A stretch of DNA of 44,416 nt from a virus, in the IMG/VR virus record IMGVR_UViG_3300027247_000008, positions 1 to 44,416 of that record; one strand, given 5' to 3'. The notes beneath the pieces are model-generated. The model was given only the letters and a program-made list of their open reading frames with translations. It made no database searches and was not told the origin of the DNA. This document shows positions 95-41,434 of the stretch, in pieces. Each line of letters opens with the position of its first letter. The stretch's first letter is position 1. The translations under genes were made by a program, and so were the position numbers.

Positions 95-114
95 TTCTTT
101 AAGGTCAGCTATTA
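95..114 (-). promoter_or_regulatory. Phage-type promoter candidate, copy A
   Basis: The minus strand reads TAATAGCTGACCTTAAAGAA. It is one of seven near-identical elements in this window and is identical to the copy at 35052-35071. It overlaps the TAA stop of the tandem-HTH gene. By comparison with the SP6 promoter, transcription would start at the G at 97, and a UUCG hairpin begins at about +9. It would drive genes to the left of the window. Promoter function is inferred from repetition, placement and the SP6 resemblance. Confidence 0.6.
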
Positions 115-701: not shown

Positions 702-717
702 CCGCTGTCCTTTCATG

Positions 718-733
718 GTAGCATTATAGATGC
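718..733 (-). promoter_or_regulatory. Repeated -10-like element (GCATCTATAATGCTAC)
   Basis: The minus-strand GCATCTATAATGCTAC contains a perfect TATAAT. It matches the element at 2869-2884 at 15 of 16 positions. It lies 17 bases upstream of the start codon at 701. No TTGACA-like -35 is visible at normal spacing. It may be an activator-dependent host-RNAP promoter; function is inferred from conservation and position. Confidence 0.4.
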
Positions 734-749
734 GTTGTTTTTCTCAGAA

Positions 750-1270: not shown

Positions 1271-1277
1271 GATCTTC

Positions 1278-1685: not shown

Positions 1686-1938
1686 TGCTAGTCTCCTTGT
1701 CCTTGAAGATTAAGTTTAGAGAGCGGATTACTTCAGGTAGAAATAACCCGAATACAGTAAACATGTTTACGAAAGAAAACCCAGCATAAGCAGGTGCAAA
1801 TACGACATAGTGTGCAATAGCTACTACACCAAGTAGAGGGGGTATTTTTATTAGCTTAACCCCAAGTAACTTTTCTGATACTGCTATAAGAAAACCTCTA
1901 GCAACAAAGCCAGCAAGTATCATTGTCAAAACTTCCAT
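1612..1938 (-). CDS. Small membrane protein, holin candidate
   Basis: This 108-residue protein has hydrophobic segments at about residues 4-22 and 30-70 (PPLLGVVAIAHYVVFAPAYAG and FVNMFTVFGLFLP) and a polar, Ser/Arg-rich C-terminal tail. The gene overlaps the SleB-type hydrolase by 74 bases in another frame, so the tail is encoded over the hydrolase start. Several short hydrophobic segments immediately upstream of a wall hydrolase fit a holin or a regulator of lysis, but no holin family is recognised. The ATG follows GAGGAGACTAGA. The membrane nature is seen; the lysis role is inferred. Confidence 0.6.
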   Translation of the reverse strand: MEVLTMILAGFVARGFLIAVSEKLLGVKLIKIPPLLGVVAIAHYVVFAPAYAGFSFVNMFTVFGLFLPEVIRSLNLIFKDKETSNVRNNSHNSLSSDRSVFRGTSRTS

Positions 1939-1962
1939 TCTAGTCTCCTCTGAGGGATTTGA

Positions 1963-1986
1963 CCTCTACTCCCTAAGAGGTAGAGG
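1963..1986 (-). other. Intergenic hairpin
   Basis: A perfect 7-bp stem (CCTCTAC at 1963-1969 with GTAGAGG at 1980-1986) with a 10-base loop lies between the stop of the gene at 2002 and the ribosome binding site of the holin candidate. There is no T-tract, so it may be a processing or attenuation hairpin rather than a terminator. Confidence 0.4.
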
Positions 1987-2001
1987 CTATTTACGAATAT
2001 G

Positions 2002-2328
2002 CTAGAAATCTACACCTTTTATATGAATCTTTGCAGACTCAGCGTAACAGTACATTCCACCATCCTTCTCAAAGTACTCGGAAGGAATTCTCCATTCACG
2101 AATGTTACCATGAATCTCGTTTCCTTCTGCGATACTTTTCCGCTTGTCAAAGTGGGGAGGCAACTCGTCAAATTCAAACTCAATTACATAGTTACCATAC
2201 ATGCCTGCTTTCTCAAGGCTATCAGTCCAGAAAGTAATAGCTTTGTGTTGATACCCCTCACCGAGAGATTGGGCCTCAAGGTAAGTTTTGCAGCCACGAA
2301 ACAGACGTGCAATCACAGTGTTTGTCAT
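2002..2328 (-). CDS. Conserved phage hypothetical protein
   Basis: This 108-residue soluble protein has the pattern LFRG near the N-terminus, FWT at about residue 33, YVIEFEFDELPPHFD at about 47-61 and NEIHGNIREWRIPSEYF at about 68-85. The pattern looks like a recurring phage protein, possibly a small ADP-ribosyltransferase-like fold (an early Arg, a mid S/T strand, a late acidic strand), but that reading is weak and I do not assign activity. GGAGATAACT precedes the ATG. It sits between the small membrane genes and the holin candidate. Confidence 0.65.
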   Translation of the reverse strand: MTNTVIARLFRGCKTYLEAQSLGEGYQHKAITFWTDSLEKAGMYGNYVIEFEFDELPPHFDKRKSIAEGNEIHGNIREWRIPSEYFEKDGGMYCYAESAKIHIKGVDF

Positions 2329-2346
2329 AGTTATCTCCTGTAGATG

Positions 2347-2363
2347 ACAAAGCCCGTTTAATT
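2347..2363 (-). repeat. 17-bp intergenic repeat, copy 1
   Basis: ACAAAGCCCGTTTAATT on the plus strand matches 2911-2927 at 16 of 17 positions. On the minus strand it reads AATTAAACGGGCTTTGT, 19 bases upstream of the start codon at 2328. It may be an operator or a promoter element. Function unknown. Confidence 0.4.
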
Positions 2364-2402
2364 GTTTTGGCAGTTTTTATACAGGATGCCAGCCTGTTAG
2401 TA

Positions 2403-2600
2403 TTACAAGAAGCCTAGAATGCCAATTATGATTGCGAACGTAGAGCAAATAATCATAGCGGGCACTGTAGAGTTCAGGAAAATTTTCGGATGCAAGATCG
2501 CTCTCGCCCCTACCTTGTAACCATCTGAGCAAGGCGAAGACCACATTACTACAACACCCATCAGGCAACCAGCTACTACTGCAATGAGAAATACTTCCAT
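2403..2600 (-). CDS. Small double-spanning membrane protein
   Basis: This 65-residue protein has two membrane segments: about residues 3-22 (FLIAVVAGCLMGVVVMW) and about 46-65 (TVPAMIICSTFAIIIGILGFL). A short polar, basic stretch (DGYKVGARAILHPK) lies between them. The start at 2600 has AAGGAGGATAAA upstream. An overlapping frame at 2377-2568 lacks such a site and is rejected. It is one of four small membrane proteins clustered near the SleB-type hydrolase, so a role in lysis timing is plausible but unproven. Confidence 0.65.
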   Translation of the reverse strand: MEVFLIAVVAGCLMGVVVMWSSPCSDGYKVGARAILHPKIFLNSTVPAMIICSTFAIIIGILGFL

Positions 2601-2617
2601 TTTATCCTCCTTGGAAG

Positions 2618-2695
2618 TTAGTTAGACAGACGTTGAAACATAGCAATAATCAACAACATACCGAGGCCGATTGAAACTACGAGTTCCAGTTCCAT
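2618..2695 (-). CDS. 25-residue single-span membrane peptide
   Basis: The frame reads MELELVVSIGLGMLLIIAMF and ends QRLSN: acidic start, one hydrophobic helix (residues 5-20), polar end. The ATG at 2695 follows AAAGGGAAATAAA, a good ribosome binding site, and the stop lies 18 bases before the next start. Its size and context resemble tiny phage membrane peptides; no family can be assigned at this length. The initiation signal and clean spacing support its being translated. Confidence 0.5.
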   Translation of the reverse strand: MELELVVSIGLGMLLIIAMFQRLSN

Positions 2696-2717
2696 TTTAT
2701 TTCCCTTTGTGATTAAG

Positions 2718-2742
2718 GTTATCACCCAAGCTGAGTGATAAC
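2718..2742 (-). other. Hairpin across the end of a small gene
   Basis: GTTATCAC (2718-2725) and GTGATAAC (2735-2742) form a perfect 8-bp stem that contains the TGA stop of the 35-residue membrane gene. No T-tract follows. It may protect or process the mRNA 3' end, or limit coupling to the next gene. Confidence 0.45.
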
Positions 2743-2829
2743 TCCTATTAGCATTGTTACAGAAAAGAAAGTCCAAGCAAAGCTGTTAAGATTGCTTTTT
2801 GCTTTCTTCTTTTTTGGCTTTGCTCTCAT
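2722..2829 (-). CDS. 35-residue basic membrane protein
   Basis: The frame begins MRAKPKKKKAKSN, giving a strongly positive N-terminal tail, followed by a hydrophobic helix (about residues 17-34, FAWTFFSVTMLIGVITQLG). By the positive-inside rule this predicts a single-span protein with its N-terminus in the cytoplasm. AAAGGAAAATCCA precedes the ATG at 2829. A repeated -10-like element lies about 45 bases upstream, so it may start its own transcript. It could be a pinholin or lysis regulator, but no sequence family supports that. Confidence 0.5.
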   Translation of the reverse strand: MRAKPKKKKAKSNLNSFAWTFFSVTMLIGVITQLG

Positions 2830-2868
2830 TGGATTTTCCTTTAAGCTTTTTGCCTGTGATACTTTATT

Positions 2869-2884
2869 GTATCATTATAGATGC
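2869..2884 (-). promoter_or_regulatory. Repeated -10-like element (GCATCTATAATGATAC)
   Basis: This is the second copy of the element at 718-733, containing TATAAT on the minus strand. A TGATAC/GTATCA hairpin (2857-2874) overlaps its downstream edge, and the 17-bp repeat at 2911-2927 lies about 32 bases upstream, where an activator would bind. There is no clear -35 box. It precedes the small membrane gene cluster. Confidence 0.4.
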
Positions 2885-2910
2885 TATAATTTTCTCACTT
2901 TTTTATAGCC

Positions 2911-2927
2911 ACAAAGCCCGTCTAATT
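2911..2927 (-). repeat. 17-bp intergenic repeat, copy 2
   Basis: ACAAAGCCCGTCTAATT on the plus strand, 16 of 17 identical to 2347-2363. It lies between the terminator of the HNH gene and the -10-like element, so it could be an activator site for that promoter. Confidence 0.4.
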
Positions 2928-2939
2928 CTAGACTCATTT

Positions 2940-2970
2940 AATAAAAAAGGCCATCCCCAAAGGGATGACC
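2940..2970 (-). terminator. Intrinsic terminator after the HNH gene
   Basis: On the minus strand GGTCATCCC pairs with GGGATGGCC across a TTTG-type loop (one G-U pair) and is followed by TTTTTTATT. It lies directly after the HNH endonuclease stop at 2976, so it closes the tape measure transcript. Confidence 0.8.
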
Positions 2971-2975
2971 AATTG

Positions 2976-3278
2976 TTATTTCTTTTTCCAAGACTTTCTG
3001 TTCTTGTTGTTTTCAGAACGAGAAGTTTCTCGAAGGTTCTTAGGTTTATTATTAGATCTGTTACGATCTTTATGATCAACAAAACCATTAGCAGGTTTTC
3101 CTGTTTTCATTTCCTGAACGATCCTATGTACATAGCGAGCCTTACCATCAATTCTGACAGTCTTGTAGCCATCACCATGATTAGTACCAGCAAGTTGCCC
3201 CGCAGCTGTTCTGCCACGGGACACCTTCCAAACTAATTGACCGTTTTTAAGTTCAAATAGCTTTCCCCACTTCTTCAT
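2976..3278 (-). CDS. HNH homing endonuclease
   Basis: This 100-residue protein has the HNH_3-type pattern: an N-terminal beta region with GDGYKTVRIDGKARYVHR (His51), then VDHKDRNRSNNKPKNLRE (His69, Asn77/81) and a basic C-terminus. Proteins of this family cut DNA and spread their own genes. The C-terminal AP2-like domain often seen in relatives is absent. The gene starts one base after the tape measure stop and ends at an intrinsic terminator, so it is a free-standing insertion tucked behind the tape measure gene. Activity is predicted only. Confidence 0.85.
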   Translation of the reverse strand: MKKWGKLFELKNGQLVWKVSRGRTAAGQLAGTNHGDGYKTVRIDGKARYVHRIVQEMKTGKPANGFVDHKDRNRSNNKPKNLRETSRSENNKNRKSWKKK

Positions 3279-3279
3279 G

Positions 3280-6200
3280 TTATGTTCTCTCTCTGTTTAC
3301 GGTATTAACACCAGACGCAATTTGAGGGATCATCCGCATGATTTCTTTCTTTGTCTGAGTGCTAATGTCACCAGTAACATTGAGGTTAACAACAGTTTGT
3401 TGTGAACTATTCTTTTGATTCTTAAAGATCTCAGCGGATCTTTGACTTGGTAATACGTACTCTCCGGGAGTTAGCATTACAGGGACACTATCCTTGCCTG
3501 CCTGACCAATCATAGGATTAATTAAGCCACCAGAAATTCTCTTCTGGATTACACCACCAGCATGAGAGGCACCTACAGAGGCTCCTCCACCAAAGAGACT
3601 AAAGATACTGGAAAGGAAACCTCCTTTACCAAAGATAGACTTGAAAAGTCCAGAGAAAAGACCATCTTTACCAAACAATGATGAAATAACTTGGCTAAAT
3701 CCTGAAGCACCTTCACCAGCAGAACTATTTAATCCGTCTGCCACCTGCTTCTGAGTGTCTACACCAATACGCTTACCAAAACTAAAGACTCCTTCAAAGA
3801 GTTTACCAAGGGGGCCATCCCCCTCTTTCCCAAGGAGGCCTGACATTAAGTTATTAATAAGACCTTCAGCAAACGTATCAACGATTCTTCCAGTGAAGCT
3901 ATCAAGAATACCTTTGAAGAACTCTTCAACATCGCCCGACTTAAGAGCATCTGCAAAACCTACTTTTAGATCATCTACAAAACCGATTGCCTGCCCTCTT
4001 GCAAACTCAGTTTCATCCTTAGTAAGTTTATAAGGATCAGCTTTTCCGCCTTTACCTTTACCTTTGCCTTTAGCGATTTCACCAAGGTATCCTGTAGAAG
4101 TTTGAGCTGACTTTAACGCAGATTCTGCTCTAGCTTCTTCTTGTGCTTTCCTGCTCTGCCATTCTTTAATGTAATTTTGTGTTGCGGCAGTATCAAGTTT
4201 TCCCGCTTCTGCTGCACGAGCCAGTTTATCATTAAGGCTTTTGTCAAGGGCGTCTAATGCTTTGTTGGCCGTTTGAAGCTCTCTTAGTGCCTCAACATTA
4301 GGTTTAGTATTAGGCCTTGTAATGGTTCCAGAATAACTCATACCTACGGGTTCAAAAGGATCGCCACCAGTACCGTTAGCAAAGGCACCAATACGTCCTC
4401 TGTTAAGCTTATCTAGGAAGCCAGTCCCAAATTTCTTAACAGAAGCGGCCCTGATAACATACTCCCCATTAGAGAGCATAGCAGGGATCTTATCTTCTGT
4501 AGGACCACCGGGACCAGAAATATAACCACCAGATGCAAAAGCACGGCCTTTAGTGTCATAGTTCTCAATAGGTGCTTCACTAAGACCTCTTAGTTTAATG
4601 AGATTCACTGTAAGAGTTTGCAGCGCCGCAGATAACTCTCCTGCGCCTTTTGCTGCAGAATTTATCTTTACTGTAGGCAACTTATCCCCCAGACCTTCTA
4701 GATCTTCTCTGAAAGTCTTTAGATCGATTCTACCAGCAACAAACGCATTATTAATAAGCGTATACTGTCGAGTCAGATCTAGTAGATCATTAGTGACTCC
4801 AGCATTACTGTAGTCAGCCTCTGTTTTAAACCTTAATAAATCTTGAGGACGACCGCTGTTTGCTCTAACATCTGAGTCTTCTAGGGCATATTTTATTTCA
4901 GCAGGTAAATTAAAGAGTGCTTCAAAATCAGCATTATTACCAGACAACGTTTCAGCAAGAGATCGAGTATTTTCTAAGAGGGCTTGCTGCCTTTTAACTT
5001 GTGCCTTCCCTTCTTCTTTCTGTCTTTCTTCTTGAATTTGTTGCTGCGTAATTTTCCGACCTATTCTCGCCGTTTCTAGTATCAAAAATCCTCTAGCAGC
5101 AATAGCACCATCAAGCTCTGCCTGTATATTATTTAAAGTTGCCTTTGCAATTTGAGTTGCACTACTATCTTCACCTAGTTTTCTAGCAAAATTATCATAT
5201 CTAGCTTTAGCTTCCTCAAGCTCTTTTGTTTTCTCAGAAATTACATCAGAAGCTTTGTTAACCTGAAGCTCTCTTGCATTAAGCAATCCTTGATCAGTTA
5301 ATGCAATGGGTTTTGTGGTTAACTCATCGTAAGTTTGAGCAGAGCTAATACCAAATGCAAGTTTTACTGTTTCTTTTAGTCTTGATACAGTATCTACAAC
5401 AGCTTTGACACCTGAATCAATAGCAGAAAGACTTGAGGAAATAGCAGTATTTATAGCATCTCCAATGCCTTGCCAAACAGCAGGATCTTTTAATCTATCC
5501 CAGAGAGCTAAGAAATCATCAATGGTAGTTGGCAGCTCAATACCAAACATCTTAGAAAGGCCTGAAGTAATAGCTACTGCAAGACCAGCACCAAGTGCTA
5601 TCCAAGGGTTCTTTGTAAAGAATCCAGCAGTAATAGCTGCATTAACACCGTCACCAATTGCGTCAGTAAAATCATTACCGTAGCCAGCTGCATCGATAAC
5701 ATTTCCTGCAAGATCAATAGCAAAGAGTCCCCCTTTTGCTTTATTACCTAGTTTACCAAAACTTAGTAAGAGTGCCGACTCAAGAGTATCACCTATTGCA
5801 TTAGCAATATTCTCACCTACACCAGCAAAACCTAATCCTTCCGCAATTGCTTCACCAGTAAAGCTTAGAGCAACAGCTGCAAGCCCTTTTCTGAACGCCT
5901 TTTGTAAGCCTTTGCTTAGTGCATCACCATTGTCACCAATTAGAATTTTAACTAGATTAGGAACAAACTTTCTATTAACAGCAGTACCAAGAATTAGTCC
6001 ACCTACAACAGCGTTAAGAGAAGAAGTTAAATTAAAACCAAATGCTTCTGCAACACCTGCACCAACACTCTCAAAAGTTTTAAGAAGAACTTCTAATAGC
6101 CCTGCGCCGACTTCACCGTCTCCAATAAGAGAATCCTTAAGGAAAGTTGTAATTTTCTTTGCGGCAGCTTTAACTTTAGCTTGCTCTTCTGGTTCATCTA

Positions 6201-8148
6201 AGAAGTTAGGTAGTAGGGTAATGCTTGCGAGAATTAAACCAATAGGAAGTAGTTTTGGAATAGCTTGAATAAAAGCTAAGCCAAGACCTAGGCCGATTAG
6301 AGATAGCGTACCTTTAAAGGCTTCAGGAAACTTATAGGCAAAAGCGCCAATAAAAGTAGCCACCCCAATTAAAACAGCATTATCGAATGCTTTAACTAGT
6401 CCTGTTTGGAATGCTATTTGAATTTTCCCCGGAGTATATTCTTCGTATTGAAGCCCCGGTGCCTCTGTAATAAGTGCAGTATAACCAAAGTAATCTCTAA
6501 CAAATTTTCTAATTCCATCTCCTAGATTTCTAACTACACCCTCATCAAAAGAAAGACCAAAGTTGTTAAGAAATCCTGATGATTTTAACTTGTCGAGTTC
6601 TTTCGAGACCCCCTTAAGAGAGGGCACAAAGTTAAAGTCTAATTCACTAAGATCTGTAAGGTTTGTAATAAGACCTTTACTTGAGTCATTCATGGAGGTA
6701 AGAAGATTACTTAGATCTTCTACAGGTTTAGCTTGAGACAAAGAAGACTTAAGAGCTTCCCACTTATCAATTGCACCTGACTTTAATTTTGAGAAGAACG
6801 TAATAATTGTATCGATTACGCCTTCGATTTTATCTCTTACTTCTTTAAACTTAGCAAGATGAGCTTCATCCCCCACACTACCTGCATTAGTAAAGGTATC
6901 AAGCCAAGATGTATTACCAACAACGCTCATGTATAGATCGTCAAAGAAGCCAGCAATGCTTACAAGAATACTTTGAATCTTATTTGCGATACTTTGTAAG
7001 TTTGTAATAGCTGAAACGAATGAAGAATCGTCAACAATATCTCTGAATCCAGGTGCCTTTGAGTTTGGTCCTAGAACTCCAGAGTCTTTTACAGCTTTTA
7101 GCTCTTTGTTTAGTTTTGAAAGCAGTTTACTAGGGTCAAGTTCAATTGTAGGAATGTTTATTAAAGATGTGATTTCCTCTATTTTTGATTTTAATATTCT
7201 ACCAACTTGAGATACATCAACATTGAAAGCTGATAATAGGATATCAGAAATCCCTAGGAATGCTTTTTCTAGATTACCTGCGAGAATTACTGCCTCTAAT
7301 CTAATACCTGCAATTGTTAACGAGTATTCATCATTAAATCTTGATAAGTAGTCAGTGATATTCTCAATAGTTTTGATTACTCTAGAAGAAAAACCTAGAG
7401 TGCCATCAATCTTTCCTAATGCTTTTGTAAACTGACTATTCAGCGCATAGGATACTGATTTTACAGTCTTTTCAATAAGCTTAAACTCTTGATCGATTAA
7501 GTATCCTTGACCAAGAAGTGCCTGTAAAATTTGTTCTGTAGTGATCTTACCATCTTTGGCTACTTCACGAAGTTTGCCAAGAGGGAGGTCCATCCCATCG
7601 GCAATTGCTTGAGCAAGCCTTGGAGCTTGTTCTAAAACAGAATTAAGTTCTTCACCTCTTAATGTACCAGAAGCAAGACCCTGTCCAAACTGAACAAGGG
7701 CGGCTTGTGCAGAAGCACCAGAAGTACCAGAAATAGTTAGAGTTTTGTTTACAAGCTCAGTTACTCTGTAAAGATCTTGAGCTTGGACTTTGGTTCCTTT
7801 TAGAGCAAGACCAAATCTATTAAAGGTATTCGCAGTTGTGTCCATAGGAACACGGGTATTTCTAGCAATTCTAGAGAGGCGATCCATAGCAATATTTAAT
7901 TGTTCGCCTTCACCAGTAACAAGCTTAATTCTACTTCTCAATTCTCTAGCAGAATCTCCTGCATTAATAAATGCTTTTGAGAGCTTGTTAACAGAATATA
8001 AAACAGAAGCACCTACTGTAATTGCCTTAAATGCAGAAGATACACGGTTAGCTGAAGCTTCAATATTCTTTACCGAGTTTTCTAGTCTTCCTAAATCAGC
8101 CCGTGCTTGTGTACTATCTGACCGTACTTTAATTTTTATACCAGTCAT
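3280..8148 (-). CDS. Tape measure protein
   Basis: This 1622-residue protein sets tail length and, in the family, forms part of the DNA entry channel. The N-terminal 230 residues match the TMP_3-type tape measure domain (GTSGASAQAALVQFGQGLAS, LRGEELNSVLEQAPRLA). The middle (about 570-700 and 800-900) holds hydrophobic, possibly membrane-active segments such as LSLIGLGLGLAFIQAIPKL. Two copies of a GG-x-I ... IPAMLSNGEYVI-type motif (about 1200 and 1565; the second reads VPVMLTPGEYVLPS) are typical of tape measures. A GKGKGKGG linker lies at about 1370. It follows a terminator and is closely followed by an HNH gene. Confidence 0.93.
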   Translation of the reverse strand: MTGIKIKVRSDSTQARADLGRLENSVKNIEASANRVSSAFKAITVGASVLYSVNKLSKAFINAGDSARELRSRIKLVTGEGEQLNIAMDRLSRIARNTRVPMDTTANTFNRFGLALKGTKVQAQDLYRVTELVNKTLTISGTSGASAQAALVQFGQGLASGTLRGEELNSVLEQAPRLAQAIADGMDLPLGKLREVAKDGKITTEQILQALLGQGYLIDQEFKLIEKTVKSVSYALNSQFTKALGKIDGTLGFSSRVIKTIENITDYLSRFNDEYSLTIAGIRLEAVILAGNLEKAFLGISDILLSAFNVDVSQVGRILKSKIEEITSLINIPTIELDPSKLLSKLNKELKAVKDSGVLGPNSKAPGFRDIVDDSSFVSAITNLQSIANKIQSILVSIAGFFDDLYMSVVGNTSWLDTFTNAGSVGDEAHLAKFKEVRDKIEGVIDTIITFFSKLKSGAIDKWEALKSSLSQAKPVEDLSNLLTSMNDSSKGLITNLTDLSELDFNFVPSLKGVSKELDKLKSSGFLNNFGLSFDEGVVRNLGDGIRKFVRDYFGYTALITEAPGLQYEEYTPGKIQIAFQTGLVKAFDNAVLIGVATFIGAFAYKFPEAFKGTLSLIGLGLGLAFIQAIPKLLPIGLILASITLLPNFLDEPEEQAKVKAAAKKITTFLKDSLIGDGEVGAGLLEVLLKTFESVGAGVAEAFGFNLTSSLNAVVGGLILGTAVNRKFVPNLVKILIGDNGDALSKGLQKAFRKGLAAVALSFTGEAIAEGLGFAGVGENIANAIGDTLESALLLSFGKLGNKAKGGLFAIDLAGNVIDAAGYGNDFTDAIGDGVNAAITAGFFTKNPWIALGAGLAVAITSGLSKMFGIELPTTIDDFLALWDRLKDPAVWQGIGDAINTAISSSLSAIDSGVKAVVDTVSRLKETVKLAFGISSAQTYDELTTKPIALTDQGLLNARELQVNKASDVISEKTKELEEAKARYDNFARKLGEDSSATQIAKATLNNIQAELDGAIAARGFLILETARIGRKITQQQIQEERQKEEGKAQVKRQQALLENTRSLAETLSGNNADFEALFNLPAEIKYALEDSDVRANSGRPQDLLRFKTEADYSNAGVTNDLLDLTRQYTLINNAFVAGRIDLKTFREDLEGLGDKLPTVKINSAAKGAGELSAALQTLTVNLIKLRGLSEAPIENYDTKGRAFASGGYISGPGGPTEDKIPAMLSNGEYVIRAASVKKFGTGFLDKLNRGRIGAFANGTGGDPFEPVGMSYSGTITRPNTKPNVEALRELQTANKALDALDKSLNDKLARAAEAGKLDTAATQNYIKEWQSRKAQEEARAESALKSAQTSTGYLGEIAKGKGKGKGGKADPYKLTKDETEFARGQAIGFVDDLKVGFADALKSGDVEEFFKGILDSFTGRIVDTFAEGLINNLMSGLLGKEGDGPLGKLFEGVFSFGKRIGVDTQKQVADGLNSSAGEGASGFSQVISSLFGKDGLFSGLFKSIFGKGGFLSSIFSLFGGGASVGASHAGGVIQKRISGGLINPMIGQAGKDSVPVMLTPGEYVLPSQRSAEIFKNQKNSSQQTVVNLNVTGDISTQTKKEIMRMIPQIASGVNTVNRERT

Positions 8149-9491: not shown

Positions 9492-9511
9492 TTCTTTAAC
9501 GTCAGCTATTA
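9492..9511 (-). promoter_or_regulatory. Phage-type promoter candidate, copy B
   Basis: The minus strand reads TAATAGCTGACGTTAAAGAA, one mismatch from copies A and F. It overlaps the tail-tube stop codon. The predicted start is G9494, and the transcript would carry chaperones, gp10-like protein and tape measure. Confidence 0.6.
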
Positions 9512-11293: not shown

Positions 11294-12412
11294 TTATGAG
11301 TGGAAGACTGGGAGAATACCTAGGTTTAGGTAGTCCATCTTACGAGTCCAAGAAGCAGCCGCAGCGTAGTTAGCATTGGTTGCGAAAGCGTTAGTAGCGC
11401 CCGCCCAGTCATAACCTTGTGGGTGCATGATGAAGCCATAACGATACCAGATGTTGGTTGAGCCACCACCAGTGTAGGAAGCAGGGTCACGGTCAACTTC
11501 AACAGGAGTTGGAACCATAACGCCAGCAGCAGCGACTGAAGAAGGCTTGATGATGAATGAGCACTTGGTTGATTGTGCGTTTAGGTCGCCAGTAGCAGCA
11601 CCAGAGAGCATCTGGTTTGCACGGGTCATGACTAGACGGAACTTACCACCGAAGATGGTGTCAAACTCAAGGTTACCATCCTGAACTTTAGTCTGGTCAA
11701 CGAGGTTAGCAGCACGCATCTCAGCCATAACTTCGGGTGAAGTTACTAGATACATGTAAGCAGGCTCATAGTCTTTGAAGCCCATGCCGATAGCCCGGAA
11801 TAGACGCTCACCACGAGCAGCACCGATAGCGGTAGAGTCGAAGAGGCGACGTGCGTCGGAAGAACCAGTAGCAGCAGCACCGAAAGCACCAGCAGCATTT
11901 ACATCTACGAAGAAACCAGTTGCAGAAGCATCTGCATCAGTATCAAAGTCAACGATACCACCGTTACCTGAACCACCTGCATCGCCGAGAGCAACTTCAG
12001 AAGCAGAAACACCCTTTAGGACGGCCATAAGTGCATTGCCTTCATCTTCGCCACGAACCTGAGCAAAGTCACGAGCAATCTTAGCAAGACCATCTTGCTT
12101 GGTTACGACTTCCTGAAGGTTTACTTGCTGCGCACCAAAGGTACGAACAGTCTTGACATAGTTTGCAATGTCAGTGGTGATGTCGGTGTATGAACCAGCA
12201 GCAGCGTTGCTTAGTGAAGGAACGTTGATGTTAGCTGATAGGGGCTTGTACCAACGGAATTGACCAATGAATGATTCACCATCTGCGGTAATATCGCTAC
12301 GCTGACCAACGATACCAGTTGAGTTTAGTTTACGCTCAGTGGTGTAGGCTTCGTCTGCATAGGCAGAAATTGCGAGTGCTACTGACTGAAAATCTGTGTT
12401 TGTAATAGCCAT
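11294..12412 (-). CDS. Major capsid protein
   Basis: This 372-residue protein begins MAITNTDFQSVALAISAYAD. Typical features are an N-arm, an alanine/glycine-rich central part (about 140-190), a spine-type segment (MYLVTSPEVMAEMRAANLVDQ) and IFGGKFRLVMTRANQM. It lies between scaffold and adaptor. Together these support an HK97-fold capsid protein. No adjacent protease gene is seen, and the scaffold is separate, so maturation may not need a phage protease. Strong codon bias toward GCA/GCG alanines compared with neighbours is consistent with high expression. Confidence 0.88.
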   Translation of the reverse strand: MAITNTDFQSVALAISAYADEAYTTERKLNSTGIVGQRSDITADGESFIGQFRWYKPLSANINVPSLSNAAAGSYTDITTDIANYVKTVRTFGAQQVNLQEVVTKQDGLAKIARDFAQVRGEDEGNALMAVLKGVSASEVALGDAGGSGNGGIVDFDTDADASATGFFVDVNAAGAFGAAATGSSDARRLFDSTAIGAARGERLFRAIGMGFKDYEPAYMYLVTSPEVMAEMRAANLVDQTKVQDGNLEFDTIFGGKFRLVMTRANQMLSGAATGDLNAQSTKCSFIIKPSSVAAAGVMVPTPVEVDRDPASYTGGGSTNIWYRYGFIMHPQGYDWAGATNAFATNANYAAAASWTRKMDYLNLGILPVFHS

Positions 12413-12436: not shown

Positions 12437-13180
12437 TTAATATTTAAAGTTACCTAACTGACCTTTCTTAGCCAGATCTAGTACTTCTGTTGTTGACATC
12501 TCAAGAATTGATTTCTTAGGTGTTGTATTTGGGACGCCAGCAGAAGTGTTAGTACCTGCGCCAGTATTAGCTTTAATACGGAACAGGAAGGAGTTATCTT
12601 CGTTTTTAGCGTAGGACTCAATAAAGTCTTTAATTGAAGAACCTGTTTTGTGGACCCATTGACCCTGATCGTTTTGGATTAGGTCATCTACGATTTCTCG
12701 GCGAGCCATCTCTCGGGATTTCTCATTACGGAACTCAAGACCAGCAAGAGCATCATTTACAACGCTATCACGGCGTAGTGAAGTGATATCTTGTTCATAT
12801 AGAGATAGCTTAGCTTTCGCCTCCGCTAATTCCATTTCGAGAGCTTCTTGAATCTTCCCTTCTTCTTTCATGCGAGCAATGTCGGCGTCTTTCTTTGACT
12901 TTTCCATTTCCGCTTTAAGTTTGAAGGCTTCATCACGCTCCTTGGCCATACGGTCCATATTAGCTTTCATCTTAGCTAGTCGTTCTTCGACAATAGCTTC
13001 GATATCATCTTTCTTATCGCTAGTATTATTAGTATCGTCACCTTTTTCTGCCTTTGCTAGCTCTTGTTTAAGAGCATCAACTTCAGCCTTTGCAGCAGCA
13101 TAAGACTCATCGTCCTCCTCCATTGCAGCAAGATTACGTTCTTTTTCAGCGATATTTGCTTTTAATTCTTCAATACTCAT
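12437..13180 (-). CDS. Capsid scaffolding protein
   Basis: The chosen start is MSIEELKANIAEK at 13180, with AAAGGATTATCA upstream; a longer frame to 13228 lacks a site. The 247 residues are dominated by a long charged coiled coil (about 5-140: KERNLAAMEEDDESY, EAFKLKAEMEKSKKDADIARM), then a less charged C-terminus ending STTEVLDLAKKGQLGNFKY. A coiled-coil protein directly upstream of the major capsid gene with a basic capsid-binding tail is the usual phage scaffold. It would guide procapsid assembly and then exit. Confidence 0.85.
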   Translation of the reverse strand: MSIEELKANIAEKERNLAAMEEDDESYAAAKAEVDALKQELAKAEKGDDTNNTSDKKDDIEAIVEERLAKMKANMDRMAKERDEAFKLKAEMEKSKKDADIARMKEEGKIQEALEMELAEAKAKLSLYEQDITSLRRDSVVNDALAGLEFRNEKSREMARREIVDDLIQNDQGQWVHKTGSSIKDFIESYAKNEDNSFLFRIKANTGAGTNTSAGVPNTTPKKSILEMSTTEVLDLAKKGQLGNFKY

Positions 13181-13286
13181 TGATAATCCTTTCCAGTCAC
13201 AGACTGAGTTTAATATGATTAGAGTCACAGACCCCGTTAAAATAGAAGTTATAGGCTATTACAAATAAACTATAACTGTAAATAGA

Positions 13287-16200
13287 TCAAGGACCGATAC
13301 CATACCAATCCTCTCCTTCTTTAAAGTCGGCTAATATGTCCGCTCTAGTAAGTTTATTAGGCGGATCAATTAATCCTAATTGTTTTGCTTCGTCAAGCAA
13401 TGCTCTGTAAGATTTATCAGAAAGACCTTCTTTTTTCATCTTTGCCAGAGTTTTACGAATTGTATCGCCTTCAAGAGCATCTGCGTAGATGGTTCTTAGG
13501 GCGTCTTTGGCACGGCGAGCTTCTCCGATATTCGTGAAAAAAGCGTCGTGGATTGTACCTGTTTGCACATTATTCTTCAAGCCCCACAAGTGAAACTTAC
13601 GAACAATAACTGCGTCATTACTATGGTTTCCGTTAACTCCTAAACCAATACTTGCACTGTTTAGAGAACTTTTACCAATAAGTCTACCATCCTTTGCGCT
13701 ATCTTCATAGATATTCGCAATTTTACGACCAGTAACTGGATCGGTAAACTCAATTCTTTCTTGAATTTGAGGTCTATACCTCTGCATCATAACTTTACCG
13801 TCAAATGTAACCCATGGAATATCTGATTTCTGAGTTTCATTAACGTATATCTTTGCAACTCTTTTCCAATAAGTGATAAACTCATCAGTTACAGGTGCTC
13901 TTTGGGCGAGATTTTTAGACATAATTCTATTAATCTCTGAAAAGTCTTTCGGACCTACAAACCCTGTTCTTGCGTTAGTAAGCTTTTCTACAAACAAGGC
14001 AGTATCAGGGTGAATTTCCAAGGCTTCTTTCAAAATTTCTCTTCCAACAGGTTGCCCTGAGTTAACAAGCTCAATAAGTTCTTTCCTAAATGCCTCTAGA
14101 GAAGACTTAGTAACATCTGCACCAAGCTTATCAGCTACTTTAATTTGCCCGTCAACTATACGAAGTTGCTCACCAAGCTGATCTTTAGTGATAGTAATAA
14201 ACCCTTTTTCGTTTAGGACTTTTGACAATTTTGCAGAGACATTTGCTGTCTTAGTAGCAGCACCCGCACCATAAAATGAGACCATGTTTTGTGCTTTAGC
14301 AGCTTTTGCAAGATCTTCCCAAGTTAGGTTAGCATCTCTTAGCGATGGAATTTTAAGGAATTCAGGATCATTTACTGTATCCATCGCAACAAGGTCATAT
14401 AGCCTGTTCTTTTGAGTAGTAGCAACAACATTGGATACCTGTGCAATTTGTCTGTCACCAGTTGATAAGGCAATAATTTGAGCACCAGAAGAGGATGCGT
14501 CATTCTCGATCATAAGTTTTGTTTTATAACTGCTTAATAACCGAGGATTTGCAAAATCTCCATTAACATGCTTATATACCCTAGTATATTCTAAGGCTAA
14601 CCTTGCCATTTTGGCAACTTCAGCTCCTTCTAAGCCTTTGACAAGAGGATGCTCAAGAAATTCACGGAGTCTACGATCTCTTTGAGTGGTTGCCATCATT
14701 AACTCGCCGATTTCTAAAAGACCCTTTTCATTTCTTCTAAAGATCTCTCTACGGCCCGCTTGAGTTAAAGCTTCTGTCCCCGGACCAATCATTGCGCCTA
14801 ATTGAACTCTAAGCTCATCTACAGCGTCAATAGACATTGATATAGCTCTTCCTGAGTTTAAAAATGGACGAACAAGCTCACCCCCCGTAGGTGTTAGATA
14901 ACCTCGGTGATACACTCGGCCACGAGAGTCCATAAAGACTTGAGTCTTAAAGTTTTTACCCCGAATACGATGCCATTTTGCTGTAGCCATCATGCCGTAA
15001 CCCTGTTCACCACGGTTAAGAATCTCGTGTCTAAATTCGTTGATAGAATCGTAATACTTAGAGTTACCCCTTGGGTCTCTGAATCTGAGTAAGTCATCCA
15101 TAAAGTCAAAGAATTCGTTATCAACACCATACTCTACGCTACTAACATGATTTAACATATTAGCGATATCACGGTCAATCTGAGCTTTATCATAGTCAGG
15201 AAACTTATCTCTTGAGATGATAGGAATACCTGTTTTATTACCACGAGCATCAAAGAATACCTTTTCATTAGGCCTGACATAAAGCTGATCTCTGGGTTCT
15301 ACAGTTCCAATACGTCTTGCAATTGTAACTCTTCTTTCTGCTTCTTGAAGCTTTAGAATTTGTTTATCAACAACAATGACTTCTCTTGAAATAGTTTCTG
15401 CCCAACCTCCAGACGGTCTACCTGTATCTAGATCAATTACACCTCTGCGAGCTTTACCTCTAAATTGAACTTTAATGACACCCTTTTGTTTAAGAAAGTC
15501 TAATACCTCGGACCCAATCTTGTGATGGTCTTTTAAGGTATGAGACGTAAATGGGAATAGATCTTTAAAGTTATCGTTAAACAGCTTACCAATATTGATT
15601 GCCAGGGAATCGTAGTCTGTAGACTGCCCCGAAGCAACTAATTTAATAGCATTTGTAATCGTATCTAAGGACTTATTATCCATGATAAGAGAACTTGGTG
15701 CCCTCTTAGCATAAAAGAACTCTAGATCAAGAATCCTTCGCTCTTGCTCTCTTGCAAGCCTGAGTAGCTTTGTAATAAATGCTTCTGTTGGTGGTTTTTC
15801 TTCAAAGATAAAATTGTATACTTTATCTATAATCTTATTTCCAGTAGCCTTGTCAAGCTCCTTTCGGAACTCATTAAGCTTTTTTACCTTCTCAAAGTCA
15901 CTAATCGAGCGAGCCTCTTTGATTTGTTGATCAACGATAGCCCTACTGATTCTCGGGTACTTCATCATAGTGTTCTTAACGAACTTTTTTTGAGTTGGAA
16001 ACTTGTTAGCATAGCTTTGAAAGTATACTTTAAGCGGAGTTCTTCCTGAGAAATAAAGTTTCTTTGCTAGCTTGGCGCCATCCTTGGCTCTCCAGTTATC
16101 AATAAATCTTTGATCTTTTAACAGATTCTCTTGAAGCTCATCAAACGAGTAATATTTACCCATGATATTTACTTTAGGGACTTCGTCTTTAAGGTTCATG

Positions 16201-17783
16201 TAGCTTAGAAAAAGCTCAGATTTCTTTCTTGATCTTGTATCAAGTAATCTAGCCACGTTTTGAACAGCGAATCTATTTTCAGCCCTAACAACAGCCGGAA
16301 AGTCCTCCCAAGGAGTTTTATCCTTAGCATACCGCTCAAATACAACTCTTAAATTCTCAACCATAACTGTTTGTTGATTGACAGAAATCTTGTCATCAAG
16401 GCCGCTAATAACACTCTCAATAAACTCTTTTTCTTCCGAAGAGATGAGTTTAGAGGCCTTCATAAAGTCAATACGTTCTTGTAGTAAATTAAAGTCTGGG
16501 TCATAGATCAAGTTATTTTTAATTTCACCTGTAAGAGGATCTGCTGAAAAGTTTCTTTCATCAAAAACATTACCTGTTCTGCGCCTAGAGTCCTGCTTAC
16601 CAGCAAGAGTGACGCCTTTATAATCAGAAAGTGATAACGTTTTGTTATAATCATCTGCGTCCATAAGAATCATCTGTCTAAGAGCATCTTTATGCTCGGG
16701 GCTTCTAATTAACACACTTGGTTTAGAAACCTTAATAATAGTATCTTTTTCTCTAAGCTTCTGTCTAGGTCTGAACACGGCAGTTAATTGTGTAGCCTTA
16801 GACCTTAATGCCTGAATAGAAAGTGCTTTGCCTGTTTGAGTGATAAACTGATCATATTTCAGCTTGCCTTCCCTAAACATGTTTGCCTTATCTTCACCAC
16901 CAAGCACACTCTTCTGAACATCAAAAGTCTGTCTTTTTAACCACTCACCAAAGGATTCTCTCTTAGGTGGAACCCCTGTTAGTAACTCTGGCTTTACTTT
17001 TTCAAGCGCCTTTTTGTTTATCTCTTTTGCATCTGTTTCTGCTAGTTCTGTCTTTGATTTTAGTACAGGAATAAGCGTACTACGGCAATTCCAATGTAAA
17101 GGAGGAACAAACCGCTTATCATCAACATCATAGACTTTACCGTTGTGATGTGAACAAATAGGACTTGTACGACTGTCTAAAATAGCACTAAACAAATAAC
17201 CCTTAATCAGGGGCTTGTTTGCAAGAACAACTCTATTTAAAGCCGCACTCTGTGTACTAGTAATTGCTGTTCTAGTCAAAGTAGATGCCTGTGCCTCAGT
17301 AAGCTTTGTTGTCCGCATTACATCAGCAATAATCTCTTTAGGTGGCTTGCCATTAGCAAGACCAGCTTTAACTTTAGTCTGAATTCTAACTAACTCTCCA
17401 GAGGAGATATTAACGACATTCTTAGTTAGTGTTCTCTCACCCTTCATCGTAGGGCCAATAATTTCTTCAAGTAGTTCCTTTGTTTTAGGTTTTTCAACCT
17501 TATAAAAGCCTTTTACATCTTTGTAGAAATTATCGGCATGAAATGAAAGTTGAGAAGTAGAAAATTCTTTGATAGAGCTAACAAGGTGCGAGTCTAATTC
17601 TCTAGCAAACCTTACTGCTTCTTTTTTAACATCGGCACGAATATCTTTATTTAATAATTTAAACAAGTTTTCCTTGTGACGAGTCATAATACGGCGGTTT
17701 TGTAACTGAACGCCCTCTTCGTATAAACGAACATCAAGCATGTGCTCGACAATACGACTGTAAATTTTGTCATTAATATCCAT
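13287..17783 (-). CDS. MuF head protein fused to single-subunit RNA polymerase
   Basis: This 1498-residue protein has two recognisable parts. Residues about 130-240 form a MuF/SPP1 gp7-type domain: LTRTAITSTQSAALNR, then DSRTSPICSHHNGKVYDV and PPLHWNCRSTLIPV (Cys210, His230, Cys233). Residues about 900-1430 form a T7/N4-type RNA polymerase: DSRGRVYHRG (952-960), motif A ENDASSSGAQ with Asp1095, motif B K1163 and Y1171-G1172 at the T7 spacing of eight, and motif C TIHDAFFTN with Asp1413. The linker (250-900) is long and charged. It sits between portal and scaffold, the MuF position. All catalytic aspartates are present. I infer a virion RNAP delivered with DNA to transcribe early genes; the T7 Arg627 equivalent appears replaced by Ala1159/Lys1160. 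Confidence 0.88.
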   Translation of the reverse strand: MDINDKIYSRIVEHMLDVRLYEEGVQLQNRRIMTRHKENLFKLLNKDIRADVKKEAVRFARELDSHLVSSIKEFSTSQLSFHADNFYKDVKGFYKVEKPKTKELLEEIIGPTMKGERTLTKNVVNISSGELVRIQTKVKAGLANGKPPKEIIADVMRTTKLTEAQASTLTRTAITSTQSAALNRVVLANKPLIKGYLFSAILDSRTSPICSHHNGKVYDVDDKRFVPPLHWNCRSTLIPVLKSKTELAETDAKEINKKALEKVKPELLTGVPPKRESFGEWLKRQTFDVQKSVLGGEDKANMFREGKLKYDQFITQTGKALSIQALRSKATQLTAVFRPRQKLREKDTIIKVSKPSVLIRSPEHKDALRQMILMDADDYNKTLSLSDYKGVTLAGKQDSRRRTGNVFDERNFSADPLTGEIKNNLIYDPDFNLLQERIDFMKASKLISSEEKEFIESVISGLDDKISVNQQTVMVENLRVVFERYAKDKTPWEDFPAVVRAENRFAVQNVARLLDTRSRKKSELFLSYMNLKDEVPKVNIMGKYYSFDELQENLLKDQRFIDNWRAKDGAKLAKKLYFSGRTPLKVYFQSYANKFPTQKKFVKNTMMKYPRISRAIVDQQIKEARSISDFEKVKKLNEFRKELDKATGNKIIDKVYNFIFEEKPPTEAFITKLLRLAREQERRILDLEFFYAKRAPSSLIMDNKSLDTITNAIKLVASGQSTDYDSLAINIGKLFNDNFKDLFPFTSHTLKDHHKIGSEVLDFLKQKGVIKVQFRGKARRGVIDLDTGRPSGGWAETISREVIVVDKQILKLQEAERRVTIARRIGTVEPRDQLYVRPNEKVFFDARGNKTGIPIISRDKFPDYDKAQIDRDIANMLNHVSSVEYGVDNEFFDFMDDLLRFRDPRGNSKYYDSINEFRHEILNRGEQGYGMMATAKWHRIRGKNFKTQVFMDSRGRVYHRGYLTPTGGELVRPFLNSGRAISMSIDAVDELRVQLGAMIGPGTEALTQAGRREIFRRNEKGLLEIGELMMATTQRDRRLREFLEHPLVKGLEGAEVAKMARLALEYTRVYKHVNGDFANPRLLSSYKTKLMIENDASSSGAQIIALSTGDRQIAQVSNVVATTQKNRLYDLVAMDTVNDPEFLKIPSLRDANLTWEDLAKAAKAQNMVSFYGAGAATKTANVSAKLSKVLNEKGFITITKDQLGEQLRIVDGQIKVADKLGADVTKSSLEAFRKELIELVNSGQPVGREILKEALEIHPDTALFVEKLTNARTGFVGPKDFSEINRIMSKNLAQRAPVTDEFITYWKRVAKIYVNETQKSDIPWVTFDGKVMMQRYRPQIQERIEFTDPVTGRKIANIYEDSAKDGRLIGKSSLNSASIGLGVNGNHSNDAVIVRKFHLWGLKNNVQTGTIHDAFFTNIGEARRAKDALRTIYADALEGDTIRKTLAKMKKEGLSDKSYRALLDEAKQLGLIDPPNKLTRADILADFKEGEDWYGIGP

Positions 17784-17870: not shown

Positions 17871-19439
17871 TTATTGCTGCAAGTCAATCTGATTGTCTGG
17901 AACAGTATTAACAAGAGGATCTGTTTGAATCTGTTCTACTGCCGCTTCATCATCGTAATCAGCGGGAAGGAAATCATTGTACTTTGCAATATTGATAAAT
18001 GTATCACGAGAAATAATTCCACTCTGATACCACTCGGAAACGAGCCGCATAGCGCCTTCACCACCGACCATGGGTGAGAAGTCACTTGATAGTTGGAACT
18101 CGATATCATCTGCTGTATACTTTGTGTTATACTTCCAATTAAGTATGAATGCAAGAATTGAACGCATAGTACCAGAGATTTTAGCATTGAGTGTACCAAG
18201 CTGTGCGGTTTGAGAAGCATTACGAATTTCTAGCGCAACACCTGAAGCAGCCATCTCAGGAGACAACATGCGGATACCCATCTTAGCCATTTCATCCACA
18301 GTAGCAGTAATTGCTCTATCCATATCAGCAAGAGCAGTTGTAGGTGTTTCAAGAACAGTGATAGATTCATCCTTGCGAACACGAAGCCATGTACCAAGCC
18401 CTGCACCTACTAAGGTATCAAATTCTTCATCTGTCATGTCAGACTGCACAACTGGCGTATAAGTTGCAGCGCCATACAGCAGGTGATTGCGACGAGAAAC
18501 CTTATTGTAAAGTGCTACTTCTCTATCGATAAGTGGCATAAGAACGGGTTCAACATAATCAAACTGACCGTTAAGTGGCCAAGCAGGAATACGATTGAGT
18601 CTCTCACCGAAGAACATTGGGACTACAGTGTTAACTTTTTCAAATCCACCTTCTGTAACATCTACTGGATACTCTTGTCTTGCTTCACCATTAAGAACTT
18701 TAACTTCAGAGTTTGGATCTTTGTTCTGATAGATGTCGATTACAAGATATCCTGACTCATCGAGATAATGATCGGCGACAGTATCAACATAGTCTGGATG
18801 CCAAGGATTATCTGGTTTAAAGTTTTCTGAAAGATAACGAGTGATGAAACGTGTAAGTGTTTTCTTACGAGTAATAGGATGGATAGCTGTTTGAATGTTG
18901 ATAACATTTTCAGCTTGAATAAGAACAGGATAGGGTTTAATTGTATCACGTTCCTCGGTAGACATCATGTCGTATTCTTCATCAGAAACAGAAGGACGAT
19001 CAACATAGACCCAAGCATTAGAAGTCTGAAGCTCTTCCCATAGAGCATTGTCTAAAAAGTTAAAAATGGATTTACCTTCAGCGGTAAACTCATTCTTAAT
19101 CCAGTTGGTAGCCTCGTCAGGAAGATCTTTTGGTAGCCGCATTTGTGATTCTTTTCTCAACAGCGCACTAATAAGAACTTTACAATATTGAGAAGTTAAA
19201 CCCGGAAGTTCAGCTTCGGACTTATAAAACTCGTATTGTGCTCCAGTCATACTTGGAGAAAAAGGGATCAGAAGATTTGTATTGTTGCTTAAGAGAACAT
19301 CATCATGCGCTTTAGCGTTAGCTTGCCCTTGCAAGATGGCTCTTGATTTTTTCCATAGTGGTACAAGAGAATGATACTTTGAAGTAGGATCAGCAACACT
19401 CTTCTTATAATTCTTCATAGGTTGTTTAATTTGAGACAT
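17871..19439 (-). CDS. Portal protein (DUF4055 type)
   Basis: This 522-residue protein begins MSQIKQPMKNYKKSVADP. Segments such as YKSEAELPGLTSQYCKVL, FLDNALWEELQTSNAWVYVDRP and VEPVLMPLIDREVALYNKVSRRNHLL match the DUF4055 portal family. A clip/stem-like region with GVALEIRNASQTAQLG lies at about 405-420. It forms the dodecameric DNA channel at the capsid vertex and binds terminase. It lies upstream of the MuF-RNAP gene, normal portal-MuF order, but unusually far (about 19.5 kb) from the terminase genes. Confidence 0.9.
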   Translation of the reverse strand: MSQIKQPMKNYKKSVADPTSKYHSLVPLWKKSRAILQGQANAKAHDDVLLSNNTNLLIPFSPSMTGAQYEFYKSEAELPGLTSQYCKVLISALLRKESQMRLPKDLPDEATNWIKNEFTAEGKSIFNFLDNALWEELQTSNAWVYVDRPSVSDEEYDMMSTEERDTIKPYPVLIQAENVINIQTAIHPITRKKTLTRFITRYLSENFKPDNPWHPDYVDTVADHYLDESGYLVIDIYQNKDPNSEVKVLNGEARQEYPVDVTEGGFEKVNTVVPMFFGERLNRIPAWPLNGQFDYVEPVLMPLIDREVALYNKVSRRNHLLYGAATYTPVVQSDMTDEEFDTLVGAGLGTWLRVRKDESITVLETPTTALADMDRAITATVDEMAKMGIRMLSPEMAASGVALEIRNASQTAQLGTLNAKISGTMRSILAFILNWKYNTKYTADDIEFQLSSDFSPMVGGEGAMRLVSEWYQSGIISRDTFINIAKYNDFLPADYDDEAAVEQIQTDPLVNTVPDNQIDLQQ

Positions 19440-19754: not shown

Positions 19755-19774
19755 TTCTTAAAAGTCAGGTAATA
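19755..19774 (-). promoter_or_regulatory. Phage-type promoter candidate, copy C
   Basis: The minus strand reads TATTACCTGACTTTTAAGAA. The predicted transcript would start GAAGGAGGAG at 19757, placing a ribosome binding site at its very 5' end with no leader hairpin. It would drive the small basic protein, portal, MuF-RNAP, scaffold, capsid and neck genes. Confidence 0.55.
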
Positions 19775-19908: not shown

Positions 19909-19928
19909 TTCTTAAAGGTCAGGTATTT
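19909..19928 (-). promoter_or_regulatory. Phage-type promoter candidate, copy D
   Basis: The minus strand reads AAATACCTGACCTTTAAGAA. It overlaps the last codons of the restored spanin frame. The predicted start is G19911, followed by two structured elements and then copy C. Confidence 0.55.
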
Positions 19929-20962: not shown

Positions 20963-21181
20963 TCATTCGGGGATTTCTTCTAAAATTTCTGTTAGCTTTA
21001 TTAGCAAATCAGGGTCGTTAGAATTTTGGTAGTTTAAATTTAAAGATAGACTAAACTCACCAATTTTCCGTTGGATGTTTTCTGAAAGTATTTGAAATAC
21101 TGAAACATCACAATCAGAAGTCTGTTTAACATCATTAACTCTAATAGCTGTTACTCTAATTGTTTTATCTGACATATCCAT
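20963..21181 (-). CDS. Hypothetical protein, 72 residues
   Basis: This small soluble protein begins MDMSDKTIRVTAIRVND and ends DLLIKLTEILEEIPE. It has beta strands and a C-terminal helix, with no recognised family. Its start overlaps the stop of the upstream tail gene as TGATG, with GGAGAA upstream. It lies between minor tail proteins and the endolysin. A virion or tail-associated role is possible from position only. Confidence 0.6.
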   Translation of the reverse strand: MDMSDKTIRVTAIRVNDVKQTSDCDVSVFQILSENIQRKIGEFSLSLNLNYQNSNDPDLLIKLTEILEEIPE

Positions 21182-28350: not shown

Positions 28351-28370
28351 TTCTTAAAGGTCAGGTATTG
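28351..28370 (-). promoter_or_regulatory. Phage-type promoter candidate, copy E
   Basis: The minus strand reads CAATACCTGACCTTTAAGAA. It lies between PhoH and the baseplate genes. The predicted start is G28353 with a short purine-rich leader (GAAGAAGAAAAACAG) and no hairpin. It would drive the baseplate, tail-tip and lysis genes down to about 19900. Confidence 0.6.
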
Positions 28371-35051: not shown

Positions 35052-35071
35052 TTCTTTAAGGTCAGCTATTA
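35052..35071 (-). promoter_or_regulatory. Phage-type promoter candidate, copy F
   Basis: The minus strand reads TAATAGCTGACCTTAAAGAA, identical to copy A 35 kb away. It lies just after the stop of the 359-residue fiber gene. The predicted start is G35054. It would drive the large fiber, short fiber and downstream adhesins. Confidence 0.62.
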
Positions 35072-41414: not shown

Positions 41415-41434
41415 TTCTTAAAGGTCAGGTAATT
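41415..41434 (-). promoter_or_regulatory. Phage-type promoter candidate, copy G
   Basis: The minus strand reads AATTACCTGACCTTTAAGAA, nearly identical to copies D and E. The predicted start is G41417, followed by the structured leader and then the terminase genes. Confidence 0.6.

Follow-up and report, generated by a model that had tools for sequence, protein, structure and literature searches.

A MuF head protein fused to a complete single-subunit RNA polymerase of predicted T7 fold, and the transcription cascade that it may start in a group of siphoviruses

Positions 1 to 44,416 of IMG/VR virus record IMGVR_UViG_3300027247_000008 (44,416 nucleotides, hereafter the window) contain a gene that encodes a MuF head domain and a complete single-subunit RNA polymerase (RNAP) in one chain. 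We propose that the MuF part probably anchors this polymerase in the virion, from where it would start a transcription cascade by way of a second, standalone RNAP. The open reading frame (ORF) of the fusion is read from the minus strand (17783 to 13287), starts with ATG and runs uninterrupted over 1498 codons. A preliminary description of this DNA, made from its letters alone, had already claimed such a fusion at 13287-17783, with the strand left unstated, and both its coordinates and every residue that it named were borne out: C210, PPLHWNCRS at 227, DSRGRVY at 952, D1095, K1163/Y1171 and H1412-D1413 are all in frame, and the RNAP part holds DxRGR, the motif A Asp, the motif B Lys and Tyr and the motif C His-Asp. 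Searches with the MuF and RNA_pol profiles, which had been suggested there as a check, exceeded the curated Pfam cut-offs for both halves, PF04233 matching residues 134-238 with 58.7 bits (cut-off 29.6) and PF00940 residues 1084-1452 with 28.0 bits (cut-off 22; four relatives also scored above it). The PHROGs matches were to head morphogenesis (phrog_241, E=7e-55) and to RNA polymerase (phrog_414, E=9e-20).

The fold of the C-terminal part was assessed on an AlphaFold model of residues 299-1498, built with 56 sequences in the alignment and having a predicted local distance difference test score (pLDDT) of 80.9. T7 RNAP (3e2e) was the top Foldseek match of the model (E=1.7e-17) and, with VIA-align, model residues 545-1496 were superposed on residues 34-882 of T7 RNAP with a Z score of 30.8, compared with about 22-28 for mitochondrial RNAPs, 19.9 for the N4 mini virion RNAP (mini-vRNAP) and 17.3 for N4 RNAP II. 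Since the match covers T7 34-882, the RNAP module appears to be complete, including the N-terminal domain, and to start near residue 545; in the model, the C-terminal part of the fusion is a right-hand T7 fold with its N-terminal domain. HHalign also aligned the fusion to T7 RNAP (E=8.7e-9, spanning T7 394-877), and in a multiple alignment with T7 RNAP all catalytic columns coincide; a search of the PDB with the single fusion sequence returned nothing relevant, a profile being needed. Structure prediction against T7 and N4 RNAPs, another check put forward in the preliminary description, therefore yielded an RNAP fold, and its term "T7/N4-type" holds for a T7/mitochondrial-like fold (Z about 23-31), while N4 is only a distant relative (Z about 20). 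Kinship with N4 by sequence was not supported: HHalign to gp50 gave no detectable match (E 0.34 for 27 columns that do not belong to the RNAP domain), and what is shared is the fold only.

At the other end of the chain, HHalign with the MuF protein of Pelagibacter phage Kolga (634 residues, no RNAP part) covered fusion residues 1-373 (E=4e-45), and a second model showed a dip in confidence at residues 338-345. The order is thus a MuF module from residue 1 to about 335 (MuF homology reaching about 335-370), a short linker, a helical extension of ~200 residues and the RNAP. The "long linker" of residues 250-900 in the preliminary description has to be abandoned, because most of it is polymerase (from ~545) and helical extension. 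The parts of the gene are as follows.

13287..17783, minus strand: MuF-RNA polymerase fusion gene, 1498 aa (ORF, Pfam, PHROGs)
16779..17783, minus strand: MuF head-protein module, residues 1 to about 335 (Pfam; HHalign with Kolga gp59; pLDDT dip at 338-345)
16152..16778, minus strand: linker and helical extension, residues about 336-544 (AlphaFold models; without confident fold match)
13290..16151, minus strand: complete RNAP module of predicted T7 fold, residues about 545-1498 (VIA-align Z 30.8; Foldseek E 1.7e-17; HHalign E 8.7e-9)
14910..14930, minus strand: DSRGRVY motif, residues 952-958 (aligns to T7 421-427; D, R, R and Y invariant)
14499..14501, minus strand: motif A catalytic Asp1095 (aligns to T7 D537; invariant)
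14271..14297, minus strand: motif B, Lys1163 to Tyr1171 (alignment; group I intron site in relatives, after codon 1167 or 1168)
13545..13550, minus strand: motif C, His1412-Asp1413 (aligns to T7 H811-D812)

The carriers of the fusion form a widespread, mostly uncultured group of siphoviruses (long-tailed bacterial viruses). Among named phages, tblastn found full-length relatives in the roseophages DSS3_VP1 and DSS3_PM1 (59% identity; Naomviridae) and a relative in pieces (gp47-gp49, about 31% identity) in EBPR siphovirus 1; their records label these proteins "minor head protein-like protein", head morphogenesis or hypothetical, and leave the RNAP half unnamed. The fusion of DSS3_VP1, a phage with Ruegeria pomeroyi DSS-3 as its laboratory host, is gp28 (about 165 kDa). 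In IMG/VR, the first query gave 51 loci. A profile built on the RNAP part yielded 472 confirmed stretches, from which the best 80 were retained; a second search, opened by a distant member, gave 359 stretches, of which again 80 were kept. This distant member, L110 (JAOUJT010000001.1), is a phage contig inside a gammaproteobacterial metagenome-assembled genome, and the same 74,179-base contig is present in IMG/VR as L111. The homologues fall into two deep clades (~32% identity). The fusion is intact and open in 64 of 107 loci of clade 1 and in 55 of 80 loci of clade 2, counts which include some double views of one contig; the other 43 loci of clade 1 are cut at or a few bases from the contig end, split by introns (L046-L048) or broken in frame in one contig (L079), and the other 25 of clade 2 are cut at the contig end. 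Residues C210, D952, R954, R956, Y958, D1095, K1163, Y1171 and G1172 are invariant in 126 full or near-full homologues, as are H1412 and D1413 wherever the sequence extends that far (one gap). The DxRGR glycine is mostly alanine in clade 2. Between the clades, the RNAP region is better conserved than the MuF part.

These data bear on the explanation that a frameshift or an assembly error joined two genes; the preliminary description had named a frameshift or a sequencing error as what would overturn its claim. More than 100 full-length open homologues in both clades, isolated phages among them, rule this out, as does the invariance of the catalytic residues, and with no point found in its favour we regard the chance of an artefact as negligible. 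At the column of R627 in T7 motif B, the four aligned clade-1 fusions have Ala or Thr, and both clade 2 and the standalone RNAPs retain Arg. Some relatives (L024:964-5772 and L038:7995-12767) carry an extra domain of ~100-130 residues, starting with NNI[TS]VFGE[SQ]HT, directly after MuF at about residues 250-386, for which no Pfam match above the cut-off was obtained.

In L046 and in EBPR siphovirus 1 the fusion gene is interrupted at the codons equivalent to 1167-1169, inside motif B, and two further contigs (L047 and L048) start inside such an intron. The interruption is a group I intron (RF00028), with E=1.5e-19 in L046 and 1.2e-8, under the Rfam gathering score, in EBPR siphovirus 1, where the HNH endonuclease gp48 sits in it. 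Another group I intron is found in L046 near the 3' end of the fusion gene.

L046:3157-3476 and 5039-5259; L047:1-187; L048:7-209; L054:15179-15405: group I introns (RF00028) in four phages

Introns placed at catalytic codons are generally a mark of genes that are essential and expressed. A dead or vestigial RNAP half, retained as a DNA-binding or structural plug, would be in keeping with the long branch of the fused polymerases and their low identity to known RNAPs (15-21%), but we consider it very improbable in view of the catalytic residues invariant in both clades, the stronger conservation of the RNAP than of MuF and the introns at motif B codons.

The cascade proposed here calls for a second polymerase, and DSS3_VP1 also encodes gp56, an RNA polymerase of 732 residues. 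When 20 records were searched with PF00940, the fusion was found in all of them; 16 also had a standalone RNAP, which scored much higher, and the remaining four were fragments of 40-54 kb. IMG/VR contig G042 (28,210 bp) is identical to the window over 600-3000 and over the fusion and extends past its left end; in this contig the gene for a 720-residue standalone RNAP begins about 140 bases beyond the left end of the window. In a tree built on a low-identity alignment, whose deep topology is weak, the fused RNAPs form one deep lineage apart from T7, SP6 and the standalone RNAPs. The same division into two clades is seen among the fused and among the standalone RNAPs, an indication that the common ancestor of these clades already had both. 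The fused RNAP as a recent duplicate of the phage's own RNAP, an origin proposed for P23-45, was rejected, given that fused and standalone RNAPs are only 15-19% identical, belong to separate lineages and apparently both predate the split.

Two classes of repeated motifs were first seen in the intergenic gaps of DSS3_VP1. The first, an early promoter-like element of the form [G/C]TGAGAAA-N6-GCATCTATAATR, is present in 2-4 copies in each of six clade-1 phages. Its core occurs in 15 copies versus 0.0 expected under a Markov model, every copy on the coding strand; the exceptions to the full element are one DSS3_VP1 copy without the upstream box and one copy in G017 with a degraded box. The GCATCTATAATG sites of DSS3_VP1 are at 35.8, 36.3 and 67.8 kb. 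The window has two such sites.

2873..2898, minus strand: candidate early promoter 1, GTGAGAAA-N6-GCATCTATAATG, downstream of the tape measure gene
2858..2873, minus strand: hairpin GATAC-AATAAA-GTATC directly after early element 1 (z -4.2)
722..747, minus strand: candidate early promoter 2, CTGAGAAA-N6-GCATCTATAATG, followed by small ORFs and then by the standalone RNAP beyond the left end of the window

A hairpin right after the early core (z below -1.5) was found at 17 of 27 sites, versus 11% of 311 control TATAAT sites, and the mean hairpin z was -2.0 at early sites and -0.14 at the controls. As the stem sequences vary among sites, this suggests a structure at the 5' end of the transcript. 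A k-mer search without preset motif recovered both clade-1 classes and two analogous classes in clade 2, CCCGTTAAATTAACCC and the bipartite GCGGAAAA...GGTATCTTATATGATA, the latter found in seven genomes at a distance of about 2-7 kb upstream of the standalone RNAP. A scan of IMG/VR detected the bipartite element in 93 stretches, many on contigs known to hold the fusion, and 7 of 23 further element-bearing contigs that were tested contained it as well. Twelve of the 16 without fusion were examined: all 12 had a standalone RNAP, none a portal gene and nine a partial tape measure gene, while, as a control, the portal query detected its target in 10 of 10 records with the fusion. The 12 contigs are most simply read as fragments starting downstream of the fusion locus. 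Among the contigs that could be tested, none from outside this phage group had the early element, and in Kolga, which has MuF without a fused RNAP and a related standalone RNAP (28%), it occurs only at chance level.

The perfect TATAAT within the clade-1 core raises the possibility that the early elements are promoters of the host RNAP, with a -10 box and a box for a host or phage activator, and that the fused RNAP acts elsewhere, for example in late head assembly or on a few genes. However, a sigma70 promoter was not supported, since the best -35 matches at early elements reach 2.2 of 6 positions versus 2.9 at random, the clade-2 element has TTATAT in place of TATAAT, and conservation extends into the spacer and the upstream box. 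The confinement of the element to this group in testable contigs and its chance level in Kolga, with a standalone RNAP and no fusion, also speak against host promoters, and we consider this explanation unlikely. For the same reasons of -35 match, clade-2 core and spacer conservation, the sequence data favour a dedicated polymerase as the reader of the early element, and among phage candidates only the fused RNAP could already be there at time zero.

The second, late class recurs before structural operons, as ACGTTAAAGAGGGGG in DSS3_VP1 and as TACCTGACCTTTAAGAA in the window. The DSS3_VP1 motif itself was rejected as the late motif of the window, from which it is absent; the window's own version has 7 sites versus 0.15 expected. 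The sites are as follows.

95..111, minus strand: candidate late promoter (TAGCTGACCTTAAAGAA), upstream of ORFs past the left end including the standalone RNAP (same site L347:3576-3592)
9492..9508, minus strand: candidate late promoter, tail region
19755..19771, minus strand: candidate late promoter, upstream of the portal and fusion genes
19909..19925, minus strand: candidate late promoter, upstream of the portal and fusion genes
28351..28367, minus strand: candidate late promoter
35052..35068, minus strand: candidate late promoter
41415..41431, minus strand: candidate late promoter, upstream of the terminase region

Because the site at 95-111 lies upstream of the standalone RNAP, this enzyme could amplify its own expression.

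The fusion gene belongs to a head operon with the order portal, fusion, scaffold, major capsid and connector genes, followed by the tape measure gene.

17871..19439, minus strand: portal protein gene, next upstream of the fusion (phrog_145, E 5e-42)
12437..13228, minus strand: head scaffolding protein gene, next downstream of the fusion (phrog_206, E 2e-8)
11294..12412, minus strand: major capsid protein gene (phrog_247, E 6e-26)
3280..8148, minus strand: tape measure protein gene, separate from the RNAP (TMP_3, E 4e-50)
2976-3278, minus strand: HNH endonuclease gene, between the tape measure gene and early element 1 (HNH_3, E 9e-15)
1278-1685, minus strand: cell wall hydrolase gene, between the two early elements (Hydrolase_2, E 1.5e-23)

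From its position between portal and scaffold, the fusion would be expected to be synthesised late and incorporated into the prohead, near the portal, through its MuF half. At infection, a few copies may be ejected with the DNA, whereupon the T7-fold C-terminal module would begin transcription at the few early promoters just downstream of the tail genes. These would drive the block that leads to the standalone T7-like RNAP, which in turn would read the late promoters before the structural and packaging operons, the fusion gene among them, and so close the loop. The preliminary description had suggested that this phage packages its early RNAP, and the standalone RNAP and two promoter-like classes, placed as such a cascade requires, lend support to that idea. 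Alternatively, the fused RNAP could be active and in the virion but chiefly mechanical, drawing the genome into the cell through transcription, which is how RNAP brings about part of T7 genome entry. The gene next to the portal and the tethering to the head would suit such a role, as would the proposal for P23-45 that entry is coupled to transcription (PMC10770324). The few discrete promoter-like sites ahead of the standalone-RNAP block point instead to gene-specific initiation, so that a chiefly mechanical role seems quite improbable, though it is compatible with a packaged polymerase that starts the cascade.

Several observations weigh against a cascade started by a MuF-anchored virion RNAP. 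A two-domain chain of ~170 kDa would need to leave through a siphovirus tail; the window stops before the standalone RNAP gene, which is seen just beyond its end in the overlapping contig only; the TATAAT of the early core would also allow the host polymerase with a helper; and residues 1-560, containing the MuF half, had no confident fold match in the PDB, so that the identification of MuF is based on sequence. Even so, we lean towards the fuller picture in which MuF serves as the capsid address of a T7-fold RNAP with its own bipartite promoters (a TGAGAAA or GCGGAAAA box and a ATCTWWWATGATA-like core, then a 5' transcript hairpin), which would run a self-contained cascade through a second T7-like RNAP, on a template with deoxyuridine for thymidine in the roseophage members.

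The closest parallel is Thermus phage P23-45, whose tape measure protein is fused to a two-barrel RNAP (gp96) that reads the pre-early promoters for a second, non-virion RNAP (gp64); the early motif is missing from relatives that have no such fusion (PMC10770324). Common to both systems are a siphovirus with a virion protein that carries an RNAP, a second RNAP that is (here presumably) made early, two classes of promoters (candidate ones here) and fusion-less relatives without the early motif. They differ in that the P23-45 polymerases are of the two-barrel cellular type carried by the tape measure protein, whereas here the modelled fold is that of T7, not two-barrel, the carrier is MuF and the tape measure protein is encoded separately (3280-8148); moreover, the P23-45 cascade is experimentally proven, while the present one is proposed from sequence and predicted fold. 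Coliphage N4 (Schitoviridae) likewise has a right-hand-fold single-subunit RNAP within a large virion protein, gp50, and further RNAP genes expressed in the cell, and its vRNAP is ejected from the capsid (PMC12633501). However, gp50 has 3500 aa and no MuF domain and belongs to a podovirus, and the fold described here is nearer to T7 (Z 31 versus 20). MuF-effector fusions and SPP1 gp7 resemble our case in using MuF as the capsid carrier of a C-terminal enzyme, and the partners given in the portion of that study drawn on here are PBECR, RelA/SpoT, PRTase and 2H domains, with no RNAP among them (PMC5512222). Kolga has a homologous MuF module (gp59, 634 aa) and a related standalone RNAP (gp44), but its MuF protein carries no RNAP; DSS3_VP1, DSS3_PM1 and EBPR siphovirus 1 have the orthologous full-length fusion. 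The logic of the cascade would be that of N4 and P23-45, with MuF and a T7-fold RNAP as its distinct parts. A MuF-RNAP fusion was not found in the literature searched; a 2021 Current Biology paper on roseophages with deoxyuridine DNA may mention it.

Two features of DSS3_VP1 (MN602266) differ from the window. A tRNA-Asn gene is located at 21063-21138, between the portal and the fusion gene, while no tRNA gene was found in the window. In the annotation of DSS3_VP1, the large terminase subunit (4390-6410) comes in two parts that flank a small ORF, perhaps owing to another intron or insertion, whereas in the window it is one ORF (39014-40345).

Deoxyuridine DNA is known for DSS3_VP1 (PMC12697855). 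As the reason for the fusion it was rejected, since a homologue of the DSS3_VP1 dCTP deaminase was found in no more than 3 of the 17 records, a number of which are fragments; this argues against a general link between deoxyuridine DNA and the fusion. If the proposed cascade is correct, it would explain how cultured phages such as DSS3_VP1 could begin transcription on such DNA. The large protein now called "minor head protein" would gain a function, and early transcription units could be predicted in many uncultured contigs from a short sequence element. After N4, P23-45 and the fusions of crAss-like phages, the joining of a head protein to a T7-fold enzyme would then represent another route by which a phage polymerase is brought into the host.

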